A stretch of DNA of 64,000 nucleotides, taken from the NCBI RefSeq assembly GCF_017183135.1, contig NZ_JADDXW010000002.1, positions 124,001-188,000 on the forward strand, written 5' to 3'. The translations under genes were made by a program, and so were the position numbers. This DNA comes from Aurantimonas marina. GTDB taxonomy: Bacteria > Pseudomonadota > Alphaproteobacteria > Rhizobiales > Rhizobiaceae. The number at the start of each line of letters is the position of its first letter. The stretch's first letter is position 1. This document shows, in pieces, positions 49,128-64,000 of this stretch. Below the pieces are notes generated by a model, which saw only the letters and a program-made list of their open reading frames with translations, was not told the DNA's origin and ran no database searches.

Positions 49128-49156
49128 TTTTCATGCCGTGACGATCCCCTTATATT
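49128..49156 (+). promoter_or_regulatory. Predicted promoter of ssrA
   Basis: A -10 box TATATT (49151-49156) stands out in GC-rich sequence. The best -35 at 17-base spacing is TTTTCA (49128-49133), a moderate match. Transcription should begin near 49163. Confidence 0.5.
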
Positions 49157-49162
49157 GCGCGT

Positions 49163-49487
49163 GCCGGCTTTCGGGCCGGCTATGGCGATAAACGGCCGAT
49201 GTAATAAACCTTTCGGACCCGGGGGCGGTACCCGGCGCCTCCACCTGGACCCACACATCGCTTGCATGCGCGGTGGGTCAAGGCGGGGGCGAAATAGGAT
49301 CGACGAGGGCGTAAAGATCGGACTTTTGCTCGGCATGGTACCACCGTTATCGGGCTGTTTTATAGTTGCAAACGACAACTATGCGGAAGCACGTCTCGCT
49401 GCGTAAGCAGTGTGATCGCTTCAATTCAAGCCCTGGGGGTTCGCACTTCTAGGCGGGGTTCGGAGGCACCTGGCAACAGAAGCCTCC
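49163..49487 (+). ncRNA. ssrA: Permuted two-piece tmRNA
   Basis: The gene has the circularly permuted alphaproteobacterial layout. The acceptor piece comes first, with T-arm CCGGG-GGCGGTA-CCCGG and acceptor strand CGCCTCC followed by A (49243). An intervening segment follows. The coding piece starts at 49285 with GGGGGCGAAATAGGATCGAC. GGGGGCG pairs with CGCCTCC across the pieces. The tag frame at 49368-49406 encodes ANDNYAEARLAA and TAA. It rescues stalled ribosomes and tags products for ClpXP. The 5' end is estimated from the promoter. Confidence 0.95.
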
Positions 49488-49495
49488 ACTTTTTT
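49462..49495 (+). terminator. Terminator of ssrA
   Basis: GGAGGC (49462-49467) pairs with GCCTCC (49482-49487), followed after AC by six T (49490-49495). Confidence 0.85.
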
Positions 49496-49552
49496 ATGGG
49501 GTGCGTATCAAGCGCCCGCCCCTCCACAGCTTCGAGAATTCGGGACACCGCA

Positions 49553-54761: not shown

Positions 54762-56171
54762 TCAGGGCAGGATTTTGCCGGGGTTGAGGATATTGTTCGG
54801 ATCGAGCGCGGCCTTGATCGTCGCCATCACGTCGACGGCGTCGCCGAGTTCCTTGCGCAGATAGCCGCGCTTGCCCTGGCCGATGCCGTGTTCACCGGTA
54901 CAGGTGCCGTCCATGGCGACCGCCCGCTCGGCGAGCCGCGCCATGAAGGCTTCGGCCGCGGCGATCTCCTCGGCGCTGTCCATGTCGAGCAGCAGCGTCA
55001 CGTGGAAATTGCCGTCGCCGACATGGCCGACGATCGGCGCGATCAGGCCGGCGGCGTCGATGTCGGCTTGCGTTTCCGCGATGCATTCGGCCAGCCGCGA
55101 CACCGGCACGCAGACGTCGGTGGCGATGCCTTTGGCGCCGGGGCGAAGCGCCAGCGCCGCCCAGTAGAACTGGTGCCGCGCCTTCCACAACAGCGCCCGC
55201 TCCTCGGTCCGCTTGGCGCCCTGGAACGGGCCGCCGCCGCGGTCCTCGGCGATCGCGGCGAACAACTCGGCCTGTTCGGCGACCGAATTCGCCGAACCGT
55301 GGAACTCCAGGAACAGCGACGGCCGCGCTTCGAGATCGAGCTGAGAATGGGCGATCGCCGCCTGCATGGACAAGGTGTCCAGCAGCTCGATCCGGGCCAC
55401 CGGAATCCCGGCCTGGATGGTCTGGATCACCGCGTCGCAGGCGCTTTTGACGTCCGGAAACGGGCAGACGCCGGCCAGAATCGATTCCGGAATGCCGTAG
55501 AGCTTGAGATTGAGCTTGGTGATGATGCCGAGCGTGCCCTCCGAGCCGACCAAAAGCCGGGTCAGGTCGTAGCCGGCCGAGGTCTTCTTGGCCCGCCGCG
55601 CGGTGCGGATGATCTTGCCGTCCGCCATCACCGCCGTCAGCCCGATGACGTTGTCGCGCATCGTGCCGTAGCGCACGGCGTTGGTACCCGAAGCGCGCGT
55701 CGCGGCCATGCCGCCAAGGCTGGCATTGGCGCCCGGATCGATCGGAAAGAACAGCCCGGTGTCGCGCAAATGCGCGTTCAGCGCCTCGCGGGTGACGCCC
55801 GGCTCGACCGTACAGTCGAGATCCTCGGCGTTGACGGCGAGTACGGCGTCCATACGCGACAAATCGAGCGAGATGCCGCCCTCCGGCGCGTTGACATGGC
55901 CCTCCAGCGACGAGCCGGTGCCGAAGGCGACGATCGGCGTTCGATACTCGCCGCAGAGCTCAACGAGCGTCTGCACCTCGGCCTCGGTCTCGGCGAAGAA
56001 CACCGCGTCGGGCATCTGGGTCGGGATGTAGGTGGTCGAATGGGCGTGGGCGCGGCGCACGTCCTCGCCGGTAACGAGCCTCTCGCCGAATCGCTGCTTC
56101 AGCACCGACACGGCGGTGGCGATACCCTCGCGCCTCGCCGGCCGTTCCGCCAGGATGTCCGCTAATGCCAT
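54762..56171 (-). CDS. FAD-linked D-lactate/glycolate-type dehydrogenase
   Basis: A 469-residue PCMH-type flavoprotein. The FAD-binding region is TPIVAFGTGSSLEGHVNAP, then GGISLDLSRMD, FFPIDPGANASLGGMAATRASG and RLLVGSEGTLGIIT. The C-terminal domain ends with GHVGDGNFHVTLL and CTGEHGIGQGKRGYL, typical of cytochrome-linked D-lactate dehydrogenase (Dld/LDHD) and GlcD. D-lactate is the best guess, glycolate or other D-2-hydroxyacids are possible. No GlcE/GlcF partners are adjacent, which argues against a full glycolate oxidase. Confidence 0.88.
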   Translation of the reverse strand: MALADILAERPARREGIATAVSVLKQRFGERLVTGEDVRRAHAHSTTYIPTQMPDAVFFAETEAEVQTLVELCGEYRTPIVAFGTGSSLEGHVNAPEGGISLDLSRMDAVLAVNAEDLDCTVEPGVTREALNAHLRDTGLFFPIDPGANASLGGMAATRASGTNAVRYGTMRDNVIGLTAVMADGKIIRTARRAKKTSAGYDLTRLLVGSEGTLGIITKLNLKLYGIPESILAGVCPFPDVKSACDAVIQTIQAGIPVARIELLDTLSMQAAIAHSQLDLEARPSLFLEFHGSANSVAEQAELFAAIAEDRGGGPFQGAKRTEERALLWKARHQFYWAALALRPGAKGIATDVCVPVSRLAECIAETQADIDAAGLIAPIVGHVGDGNFHVTLLLDMDSAEEIAAAEAFMARLAERAVAMDGTCTGEHGIGQGKRGYLRKELGDAVDVMATIKAALDPNNILNPGKILP

Positions 56172-56281
56172 GGAATTCCGTCTCCCTTCCCGTCGGCCGC
56201 CGCGATGGACCACCGGATTTGACTTCCCCGCGCCGCCCGGCTTTCCCTTGCCGCAACGCCCACCCGCGACGAAGAGCCCCG

Positions 56282-61528: not shown

Positions 61529-62494
61529 TCAAATCGCTATCTCGGTGGCTTCGCCGGATTGCTGGGCGAGCTCGACCGCTGCAGAGGCCACCGCGAGATC
61601 CTGCAGACCGACGCCGGTGCCATCGAACAGAGTGATCTCGTCGTCGGACGTCCGTCCCGGATGGGTGCCGTTGATCACGGCCCCGATCGGGGTGATCGCC
61701 TCCTGCTTGACGAGGCCGGCGGCAATAGCGTGCTGGAACTCGCCGATCGTCACCGATTGGGCGATCTCGTCGGTGAAAAGCGTGGCCGCCGCCACCAGCG
61801 CCGGATCGACCTCCTGCTTGCCCTTGGTGTCGGTGCCCATGCAGGCGAGATGCGTGCCCGGCTTGATCCAGTCCCGCATCATCAACGGCTCATGGGCGGA
61901 GGTGATGCTGACGATGACGTCGGCCTCGGCGCCGAGCCGTTCGCGCTCCACCGCCTCGAAGGGCAGGCCGACCTCTTCGGCGACCCCGGCCAGCCCTGGC
62001 AGCATCTCTGGGTGGAAGTTCCACGCGACCACCTTCTCGAACGACCGCTGTTCGGCCGCGGCACGCAGCTGGAAGGCGGCCTGGTGCCCCGCTCCCACCA
62101 TGCCCAGCACCTTGGCGTCGCGGCGCGCGAGATGGGCGATTGAAACCGCGCTCGCCGCCGCCGTGCGAACCGCCGTCAGATAGTTGCCGCCGACCAGCGC
62201 CTTGAGCTGACCGGTATCGGCGTCGAACAGGAAGACCGTCGACTGGTGATTGGTCAGTCCCTTGGCGGCGTTACCCGGCCAATAGCCGCCGGATTTCAGG
62301 CCGAGCACGAGGCTGGAGCGGTCGAAGCCGGACTTGAAGCCATAAAGCGCGTCGGCATGGCCGATCGCCTCGCGGATGACCGGGAAGTTATATGCGTCGC
62401 CCTTGGCCATCGCGGCGAACACCGCTTCGACCGCCTTGAAGGCATCGGCGCGGCCGACCAGTTTCTTGCAGGTGTCCTCCGAAACGATGAACAT
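61529..62494 (-). CDS. bhcD: Iminosuccinate reductase
   Basis: A 321-residue member of the ornithine cyclodeaminase/mu-crystallin family. The NAD(P) motif is LGMVGAGHQAAFQLRA; FPVIREAIGHADALYGFKSG and GLTNHQSTVFLFDADTG lie in the substrate domain. Position directly after bhcC, nine bases apart, identifies it as the enzyme that reduces iminosuccinate to aspartate in the beta-hydroxyaspartate cycle. Without that context it would be called an ornithine cyclodeaminase. The cycle regenerates the amino donor. Confidence 0.88.
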   Translation of the reverse strand: MFIVSEDTCKKLVGRADAFKAVEAVFAAMAKGDAYNFPVIREAIGHADALYGFKSGFDRSSLVLGLKSGGYWPGNAAKGLTNHQSTVFLFDADTGQLKALVGGNYLTAVRTAAASAVSIAHLARRDAKVLGMVGAGHQAAFQLRAAAEQRSFEKVVAWNFHPEMLPGLAGVAEEVGLPFEAVERERLGAEADVIVSITSAHEPLMMRDWIKPGTHLACMGTDTKGKQEVDPALVAAATLFTDEIAQSVTIGEFQHAIAAGLVKQEAITPIGAVINGTHPGRTSDDEITLFDGTGVGLQDLAVASAAVELAQQSGEATEIAI

Positions 62495-62503
62495 GCCTCG
62501 TCC

Positions 62504-63667
62504 TCAGTACGCCAGGCCGCGGGCGGTGACCGGCCACAGGGTCTCGACCTTGCCGTTGCGCACGCCGACATACCAGTCGTGGACGTTGCAGGTCGGGTCG
62601 CAATGGCCCGGCACGAGACGCAGCTTCTCGTTGACCTTCAGCACGCCGTTCGGGTCCTCGATGACGCCATGCTCGTCCGAGCATTTGACGTATTTGACGT
62701 CGTCGCGCCCGTAGATGAACGGCAGTCCGCTGTCGACCGACTGCGCCTTCAGCCCGGCGTCGCAGATCGCCTTGTCCGGCTTGGCGTGGCTCATCACCGA
62801 GGTCAGGAGGAACAGCGCGTTCTCCCATTCGCCGTGGTCGATCCGGTTGCCGTCCTTGTCGAGGATGCGGCCGTAATCGGCGTCCATGAAGGCGTAGGAG
62901 CCGCACTGCAGCTCGTTGTAGACGCCGGAATTGCCTTCGAAATAATAGCTGCCGGTGCCGCCGCCGCCGACGATGTCGCACTCGAGTCCTTCGGCCTTCA
63001 GCGCGTCGACGGCGTCCTTCACCATCGCCACTGCGATGTCGATCTTGGCCTTGCGGTCCTCGTATTTGTCCATGTGCTGCATCGCGCCCTGATAGGCCTG
63101 AATGCCGCTGAACTTCAGGCCGGGCGCCGCGTCGATCGCCTTGGCGATCTTGACCACATCCTCGGTTTTGGTGACGCCGCAGCGGCCGGCGCCGCAGTCG
63201 ATCTCGACGAGGCACTCGATCGTCGTGCCGTGCTTTTGCGCCGCCGCCGAGAGGTCAGCGACATTGGCGACGTCATCGACGCAGCAGATCGTGCGCGCGC
63301 CGAGCTTCGGGATGCGCGCGAGGCGATCGATCTTGGCCGGGTCGCGAACCTGGTTCGACACCAGCACGTCCTTGATGCCGCCGCGGGCGAAAGCCTCGGC
63401 CTCGCTCACCTTCTGACAGCACACGCCGCAGGAGCCGCCGAGGCTCTCCTGCAGCTTTTGTACGTCGACGGACTTGTGCATCTTGCCGTGGCTGCGATGG
63501 CGCACGCCCATGTCCCTGGCGAATTTGCCCATCTTCTCGACGTTGCGCTCCAGCGCGTCGAGATCAAGAATCAGGCAGGGCGTCTGGATCTCGTTCTCGG
63601 ACATTCCGACCGCCGCCGGAATGTTGTAGCCGACCTCGAAGTCGTCGATCTTGATCGGTGCGTTCAT
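62504..63667 (-). CDS. bhcC: beta-Hydroxyaspartate aldolase
   Basis: A 387-residue PLP enzyme of the alanine racemase-fold D-threonine aldolase group. The PLP Lys lies in HRSHGKMHKSVDVQ. IQTPCLILDLDALERNV is the N-terminal family motif. The metal site is near the C-terminus in VPGHCDPTCNVHDWYVGVRN (His and Cys ligands). It joins glyoxylate and glycine to 3-hydroxyaspartate. The length equals my memory of the Paracoccus BhcC. It lies 12 bases after bhcB and 9 before bhcD. Confidence 0.92.
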   Translation of the reverse strand: MNAPIKIDDFEVGYNIPAAVGMSENEIQTPCLILDLDALERNVEKMGKFARDMGVRHRSHGKMHKSVDVQKLQESLGGSCGVCCQKVSEAEAFARGGIKDVLVSNQVRDPAKIDRLARIPKLGARTICCVDDVANVADLSAAAQKHGTTIECLVEIDCGAGRCGVTKTEDVVKIAKAIDAAPGLKFSGIQAYQGAMQHMDKYEDRKAKIDIAVAMVKDAVDALKAEGLECDIVGGGGTGSYYFEGNSGVYNELQCGSYAFMDADYGRILDKDGNRIDHGEWENALFLLTSVMSHAKPDKAICDAGLKAQSVDSGLPFIYGRDDVKYVKCSDEHGVIEDPNGVLKVNEKLRLVPGHCDPTCNVHDWYVGVRNGKVETLWPVTARGLAY

Positions 63668-63679
63668 GGCTTCTCTCCC

Positions 63680-64000
63680 TCAGCTCTGCATCCAGGGCAG
63701 CTTCTTCAAATCGACATTGCCGCCGGTCAGGATAACCCCGACCCGCTTGCCGGCGAACACGTCCCGGTTCTTCAGGATCGTCGCCAGCGGCACGGCGCAA
63801 CTCGGTTCGATGACGATCTTCATGCGCTGCCACGTCAGATACATGGCCTCGATGATCTCTTCCTCGGTGGCCAATAGCACGTCGGTGACGTAATTCGAGA
63901 CGAAATGCCAGGTCCGCGGGCGCAGGCTCACCTTCAGCCCGTCGGCCACGGTCTGCGGCGCGTCGTCCTCGATGATCTCGCCGGCATGGAAGGAACGATA
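63680..64000 (-). CDS. bhcB: beta-Hydroxyaspartate dehydratase, C-terminal part
   Basis: The C-terminal 106 codons of a threonine-dehydratase-type PLP enzyme; the frame is open at the window edge and the N-terminal catalytic Lys lies outside. Visible parts are TVADGLKVSLRPRTWHFVSN, VIEPSCAVPLATIL and KRVGVILTGGNVDLKKLPW, the family end. In the context of bhcC and bhcD it should dehydrate 3-hydroxyaspartate to iminosuccinate. A simple serine/threonine dehydratase cannot be excluded from this part alone. Confidence 0.85.
   Translation of the reverse strand, partial: YRSFHAGEIIEDDAPQTVADGLKVSLRPRTWHFVSNYVTDVLLATEEEIIEAMYLTWQRMKIVIEPSCAVPLATILKNRDVFAGKRVGVILTGGNVDLKKLPWMQS

Follow-up and report, generated by a model that had tools for sequence, protein, structure and literature searches.

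In the beta-hydroxyaspartate cycle (BHAC) two molecules of glyoxylate are turned into one C4 acid with no loss of carbon. BhcA converts glyoxylate to glycine with aspartate as the amino donor, BhcC joins the glycine to a second glyoxylate to form beta-hydroxyaspartate, BhcB removes water from this compound to give iminosuccinate, and BhcD reduces iminosuccinate to aspartate; aspartate then donates its amino group and exits the cycle as oxaloacetate. Glyoxylate is also a product of the urate/allantoin operons (puuD-uraH-uraD-puuE-allE-allA), where AllA frees it from ureidoglycolate; in E. coli the glyoxylate derived from allantoin use enters the glycerate pathway. Here we describe a bhcRABCD cluster of Aurantimonas marina which lies across the end of a stretch of 64,000 nucleotides (the window, C12:124001-188000 of a 4.03-Mb assembly that is 99.02% complete) and which adjoins genes of the ureide branch of purine breakdown.

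Like the bhcRABCD cluster of Paracoccus denitrificans, this cluster combines the four enzymes with an adjacent and divergent IclR-type regulator, BhcR, and carries a palindrome-like element before bhcA, where a potential palindromic site has been reported for P. denitrificans. A difference is that puuE-uraD, allE and allA stand behind bhcR here, in the same orientation, with the glcDEF-type genes on a separate contig; the comparison covers the P. denitrificans cluster itself. In a Paracoccus metagenome-assembled genome (L081), uraH and puuD were found downstream of bhcD. The likeness to the urate/allantoin operons lies in the ureide genes, which score over curated cut-offs, whereas the adjoining assimilation route is the BHAC here and the glycerate pathway in E. 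coli. The latter is named as the E. coli glyoxylate route in PMC11323563, whose introduction also states that glyoxylate arises from purines and allantoin. No report that ties the BHAC to purine-breakdown genes was found in the literature searched; the original 2019 account stands outside that search and may mention purines, and in PMC11166783 allantoin appears only in the reference list.

Identity and organization of the bhc cluster

We consider it highly probable that this is a complete bhcRABCD cluster for the BHAC, to which glyoxylate could come from at least two sources encoded in this genome, glycolate oxidase and ureidoglycolate lyase, where the enzyme activities, the binding of BhcR and the flux from purines are those that we infer from the genes. 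The features are listed below; L003 is the contig sequence running past the window end (window position 64000 corresponds to L003 4000, and the 4000-base overlap is identical).

Window 61529-62494, minus strand: bhcD, iminosuccinate reductase, 321 amino acids (NCBIfam NF045643, 592.9 bits, cut-off 500)
Window 62504-63667, minus strand: bhcC, 3-hydroxy-D-aspartate aldolase, 387 amino acids (NCBIfam NF045642, 768.7 bits, cut-off 690)
Window 63680-64000 (C-terminal part; whole gene L003 3680-4660), minus strand: bhcB, beta-hydroxyaspartate dehydratase, 326 amino acids (NF045641, 592.3 bits, cut-off 550)
L003 4670-5860, outside the window, minus strand: bhcA (NCBIfam NF045640, 728.9 bits, cut-off 650)
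L003 5914-5938, outside the window, minus strand: candidate BhcR operator, a conserved 25-bp element
L003 6079-6921, outside the window, plus strand: bhcR (NCBIfam NF045644, 403.9 bits, cut-off 350)
L003 7048-8466, outside the window, plus strand: puuE-uraD, allantoinase fused to 2-oxo-4-hydroxy-4-carboxy-5-ureidoimidazoline (OHCU) decarboxylase (over curated cut-off)
L003 8409-9329, outside the window, plus strand: allE open reading frame (ORF) (over curated cut-off)
L003 9326-9835, outside the window, plus strand: allA (over curated cut-off)

An earlier, sequence-only reading of the window had recognised three tightly spaced minus-strand genes as bhcB, bhcC and bhcD of the BHAC. The genes are present as described, with 9 bp between bhcD and bhcC and 12 bp between bhcC and bhcB, and their family models score over the equivalog cut-offs. 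The window end cuts bhcB, leaving its last 106 codons and the stop inside, and this fragment has the BhcB model as its top NCBIfam match (189 bits). The same reading made the presence of bhcA and a divergent bhcR past position 64000 its own test, and both were found there, with 9 bp between bhcA and the bhcB that it precedes. All four enzyme genes share a strand, follow one another as A-B-C-D and are tightly packed, and bhcR is divergent from bhcA. All five proteins exceed NCBIfam equivalog cut-offs, and chance is no explanation for the three-ORF arrangement together with the family scores. The cluster is, judged by sequence, a canonical and complete bhcRABCD of the BHAC. In Aurantimonas marianensis (L005) the Bhc proteins share 97-99% identity with these, which by itself makes an Aurantimonas host probable. 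The expectation that routine annotation would hide the pathway turned out to be mistaken, NCBIfam having equivalog models for all five proteins.

That the three window genes encode unrelated amino-acid enzymes (a D-threonine aldolase, a threonine dehydratase and an ornithine cyclodeaminase) was considered and rejected, the Bhc-specific models scoring far higher, and we give this explanation next to no credence. Such likeness as exists is at the superfamily level: BhcC reaches 324.5 bits to the D-threonine aldolase 7dib, against 707.4 bits to the D-3-hydroxyaspartate aldolase 6qkb and 768.7 bits to the Bhc-specific model, and it matches no NCBIfam family besides NF045642 at E <= 0.001. The joint presence of four enzymes and BhcR, with conserved gene order and promoter element, also speaks against it. 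The kinship of BhcC and BhcD with the characterised enzymes, put forward in the sequence-only reading, is borne out by the nearest solved structures, which are 6qkb for BhcC (306 of 387 positions identical) and the iminosuccinate reductase 6rqa for BhcD (213 of 320 aligned positions identical), both being whole-protein counts. We take both structures to be of Paracoccus origin.

The placement of BhcC was also considered in 385 genomes of the class, chosen independently of BhcC similarity and counted without regard to relatedness. Matches to NF045642 (E <= 1e-100) occurred in 52 of them: 13 at 717-770 bits, six at 566-663 bits and 33 at 365-490 bits. The BhcC described here, with 768.2 bits in this sample, falls in the top group, the grouping being by score alone, in agreement with its proposed membership of the Bhc group.

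The regulator and the element before bhcA

Among solved structures BhcR matched IclR and AllR (1td5, 2o99 and 1tf1), and it stayed below the cut-offs of the IclR model (228.5 bits, cut-off 380) and the AllR model (173.1 bits, cut-off 406). In an alignment to E. coli IclR, with positions counted by hand, the oxygen-binding positions 160, 161, 212, 239 and 241 of BhcR are G, I, D, S and S. According to Table 1 of PMC11323563 the BhcR of P. denitrificans has the same residues at these positions, including Ile161. The methyl-patch positions 143, 146, 154 and 220, also counted by hand, are P, A, G and M, and the pyruvate methyl patch is not kept; in the same table these positions are T, A, S and M in the Paracoccus BhcR and L, M, L and L in IclR. 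The glyoxylate oxygen-binding residues are common to this BhcR and to E. coli IclR and AllR except at position 161, where BhcR differs from them by its Ile, as it does by the four residues of the methyl patch. BhcR would act as a glyoxylate-sensing regulator of the IclR type and switch the operon, probably through an element about 77 bp before bhcA.

This 25-bp element, with the consensus TGAAAAAtttTTTCAAAAAAATTGc, was first spotted by eye and then scored with an iterated matrix in the gaps between divergent bhcA and bhcR genes, 65 in all, one from this genome and 64 from the loci. It scored at least 17 in 64 of the 65 gaps, the exception being L067 with 15.5, and in 60 of them it lies between -74 and -80 relative to the start of bhcA. 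The copy of A. marina is CGGAAATAATTTTCAGAAAAATTGC, and its 24-base core has a single match with up to three mismatches in the genome, which is the bhcA promoter itself. When 33 regions were held out the lowest score was 17.8, while 660 shuffles had a 99% point of 12.3 and a maximum of 18.5; this test is weakened by a seed that was picked with the full set of sequences in view and by the relatedness of the regions. Scanned at threshold 17, 1,503,497 bases of partly overlapping loci gave five matches besides the trained sites: four directly before bhcA in loci that had not been used for training (L020, L037, L051 and L083), and one between bhcA and bhcR in L064. An E. coli IclR box was set aside as the shared signal; a strict search found it in only 18 of the 65 regions, with 23 matches against about 2.2 expected.

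For P. denitrificans, a figure legend of PMC11323563 reports a potential palindromic site of BhcR that lies upstream of the bhcA -35 region. The element conserved before bhcA is likewise palindrome-like, the comparison being one of form and position, and it is probably the P. denitrificans site seen across genera. In L020 (7752-7776) and L083 (6368-6392) the element is kept at the bhcA promoter although neither locus yielded a bhcR, and here the regulator may have moved while the site stayed.

Possible sources of glyoxylate in the genome

BhcA, BhcB, BhcC and BhcD of this strain would run the published cycle on glyoxylate from two feeds. The first would be glycolate oxidase, for which glcD-, glcE- and glcF-type genes were found on another contig, C1 (GlcF 470.9 bits, cut-off 333; GlcE 289.2 bits, cut-off 284; GlcD 545 bits, just under its cut-off of 567.9). 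The growth on glycolate foreseen in the earlier reading is a reasonable prediction because of these genes, with a reservation for GlcD. A GlcD-like FAD-linked oxidase is also encoded within the window (54762-56213), about 5 kb from bhcD. It was set aside as the glycolate oxidase, having 313.1 bits to TIGR00387 against the cut-off of 567.9 and a better candidate on C1; its substrate is possibly D-lactate or another 2-hydroxy acid.

The second feed would be ureidoglycolate lyase, which completes the pathway of the puuE-uraD/allE/allA operon. The ORFs of this operon lie directly behind bhcR and on the same strand, and they overlap or almost do so. The earlier picture is amended in this respect: purine breakdown, through its ureide branch, is the source of glyoxylate in physical linkage with the cluster, and the genes concerned lie beyond the window end. 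The purine and ureide steps found in the genome include PuuD, UraD, PuuE, AllE and AllA. On contig C1, xdhB (1261.9 bits, cut-off 849.5) and guaD (549.1 bits, cut-off 375.4) stand beside the gene for the urate oxidase PuuD (452 bits, cut-off 26.9), and an allantoate-amidohydrolase-like gene was recognised at the subfamily level only (448.3 bits, cut-off 399). With glcDEF-type and purine/ureide genes in the same genome, glycolate and purines could plausibly both supply glyoxylate here.

Linkage of bhc and ureide genes

A wider proposal, which on the present evidence we hold to be evenly balanced, is that in many Alphaproteobacteria the BHAC would serve purine breakdown as its dedicated final stage of carbon assimilation, in some of them (such as genome G394) perhaps without glycolate oxidase, and that glyoxylate sensed by BhcR would tie both operons in the host. 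Urate or allantoin would be degraded to ureidoglycolate, AllA would free glyoxylate from it, and the four Bhc enzymes would fold two glyoxylates into oxaloacetate for biomass. It has to be weighed against an ordinary BHAC fed by glycolate only, in which the adjoining ureide genes are an accident of gene order; this is a possibility that we take seriously but incline to doubt.

The neighbourhood of bhcC was compared in 80 loci. Being the top 80 of at least 586 matches to this BhcC, they lean towards close relatives; 47 of them have full flanks. Sixteen of these 47 have at least one of puuE, allE, allA, uraH or puuD at a distance of up to about 10 kb from bhcC, with at least two urate/ureide genes in 15 and at least three in 14; when short loci are included, such a gene is near bhcC in 19 of the 80. 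Searched over identical flanks at identical thresholds, none of the 47 showed glcD, glcE or glcF, a contrast that does not favour glycolate as the only feed. The two counts were first made at differing thresholds, and a repeat with one threshold set gave the same 16/47 and 0/47. Only one of the 80 loci, the short L038, has glcF nearby. Our own estimate of linkage by chance is 0.5% (20 kb in 4 Mb) and ignores shared descent. Clustering of the ORFs of 81 loci, L003 included, gave as the commonest non-bhc families puuE (16), allE (14), a glyceraldehyde-3-phosphate-dehydrogenase-like protein (14), allA (13), an ABC-transporter ATPase (13), uraH (12), a TRAP-transporter subunit (11) and puuD (9), the transporter labels being given by eye. 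In the genomes behind 50 of the 80 loci, AllA was present in 42 of the 48 that were searchable.

The arrangement of these genes varies. The ureide genes lie beyond bhcR in Aurantimonas and beyond bhcD in a number of Rhodobacteraceae, where uraH, puuD, a LysR regulator or a xanthine/uracil-type permease often accompanies them, while allE stands beside bhcR or bhcA in L043, L057 and L083. On a FastTree phylogeny of concatenated BhcA-D (51 rows) the ureide label requires 10 changes, of which well-supported branches force at least eight; shuffled labels require about 15, and two of 500 shuffles were as low. Short loci were kept in this tree only if they were ureide-labelled (L006 and L083), which favours the label, and the labelled loci L057 and L081 were left out for want of a full bhcD. 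The linkage has changed repeatedly yet is partly inherited, gain and loss not being separable from the change count. With differing arrangements and ten label changes, the bhc-ureide neighbourhood arose or was lost repeatedly, which counts against a mere accident of gene order.

A further comparison is provided by the class sample. AllA was present in 10 of the 13 genomes with BhcC over the cut-off and in 79 of the 372 others (Fisher p = 4.4e-5); without the genome of the window the former figure is 9 of 12 (p = 1.5e-4). In four of the 13 (G000, G202, G394 and G427) allA is within 10 kb of bhcC on the same contig, and in the other six that carry AllA it is on another contig or far off. In G394 (94% complete, 6% contamination) bhcA-D, uraH, puuE, puuD, allA and allE stand in one stretch and no GlcF was found over the cut-off (best 24.8 bits; the search covered GlcF, and GlcD was not searched for), a combination that counts against a cycle fed by glycolate only. 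Neither BhcR nor the operator element was found there.

Several observations weigh against purine breakdown as the general partner of the cycle, and some of them favour glycolate directly. The genome of A. marina itself has glcDEF-type genes, and P. denitrificans uses glycolate via the BHAC, as stated in PMC11323563. In the class sample GlcF was found in 12 of the 13 genomes with bhcC over the cut-off and in 159 of the 372 others (p = 3.7e-4); it is commoner among the 13 than AllA, which makes glycolate the more general companion and source. Moreover, urate/ureide genes are absent from the surroundings of bhc in 31 of the 47 full-flank relatives. A permease and a HexR/RpiR-like regulator lie between bhcR and puuE in L007, so co-transcription with bhcR is not general; the permease is weakly allantoin-permease-like (261.4 bits, cut-off 620) and the regulator has 55.3 bits to HexR (cut-off 296). 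In the scan of the loci at threshold 17 no copy of the element was found before ureide genes. A shared switch of both operons is for that reason not established, and a common BhcR operator was set aside as unsupported. L100 combines a urate set with bhcA-D, and a search of this locus found no BhcR and, at threshold 15, no copy of the element.

An explanation of another kind is that the cycle mainly detoxifies glyoxylate produced during the use of purine nitrogen, with little net gain of carbon, which we think rather unlikely. Purine breakdown gives ammonia, urea and one glyoxylate per purine ring, and the genome encodes a malate synthase that could absorb glyoxylate if acetyl-CoA is available; both points suit detoxification. 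On the other side, the same enzymes carry out detoxification and assimilation, and sequence analysis cannot separate the two.

Other observations on the loci

No gene similar to the allantoate-amidohydrolase candidate of this genome was found in the 80 loci, so the allantoate step is encoded elsewhere or done by another enzyme. Genome G202 has two separate bhc clusters on its contig C1 (L098 and L101), one linked to puuE, allE, allA, uraH and puuD and the other, of these genes, only to allE. Among the matches listed, GlcF is within 10 kb of bhcC only in G429, in a listing that is without the second matches of G327 and G405. There (C1:2447928-2450424) 73 bp separate the end of the glcF match from the bhcC match that follows it on the same strand, and glycolate oxidase seems to be physically joined to the cycle in this lineage.

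The glyceraldehyde-3-phosphate-dehydrogenase-like gene (L020 12228-13223 and 13 other loci) stands after bhcD in most of these Rhodobacteraceae loci. The L020 copy has the Pfam domains Gp_dh_N and Gp_dh_C, and the gene may serve gluconeogenesis on C2 substrates.

Elsewhere in the window, positions 49151-49497 hold a transfer-messenger RNA (tmRNA) gene with the tag ANDNYAEARLAA, flagged tmRNA* by ARAGORN, which we take to denote the permuted two-piece form.

Significance

The BHAC cluster itself is of a kind already known and recognised by current family models, and it adds to this carbon-conserving pathway an Aurantimonas-like genome in which all five genes are confidently named. For work on BhcR binding the element before bhcA is a concrete target, and in searches for bhc operons it can serve as a marker. 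Of wider interest is that the BHAC is repeatedly found in physical association with urate and allantoin breakdown, and this recurring pairing is worth a direct test. If it is functional, purines from nucleic acid debris or urate would be a second natural feed of the BHAC besides algal glycolate, and purine carbon would reach biomass by a route so far described for glycolate.

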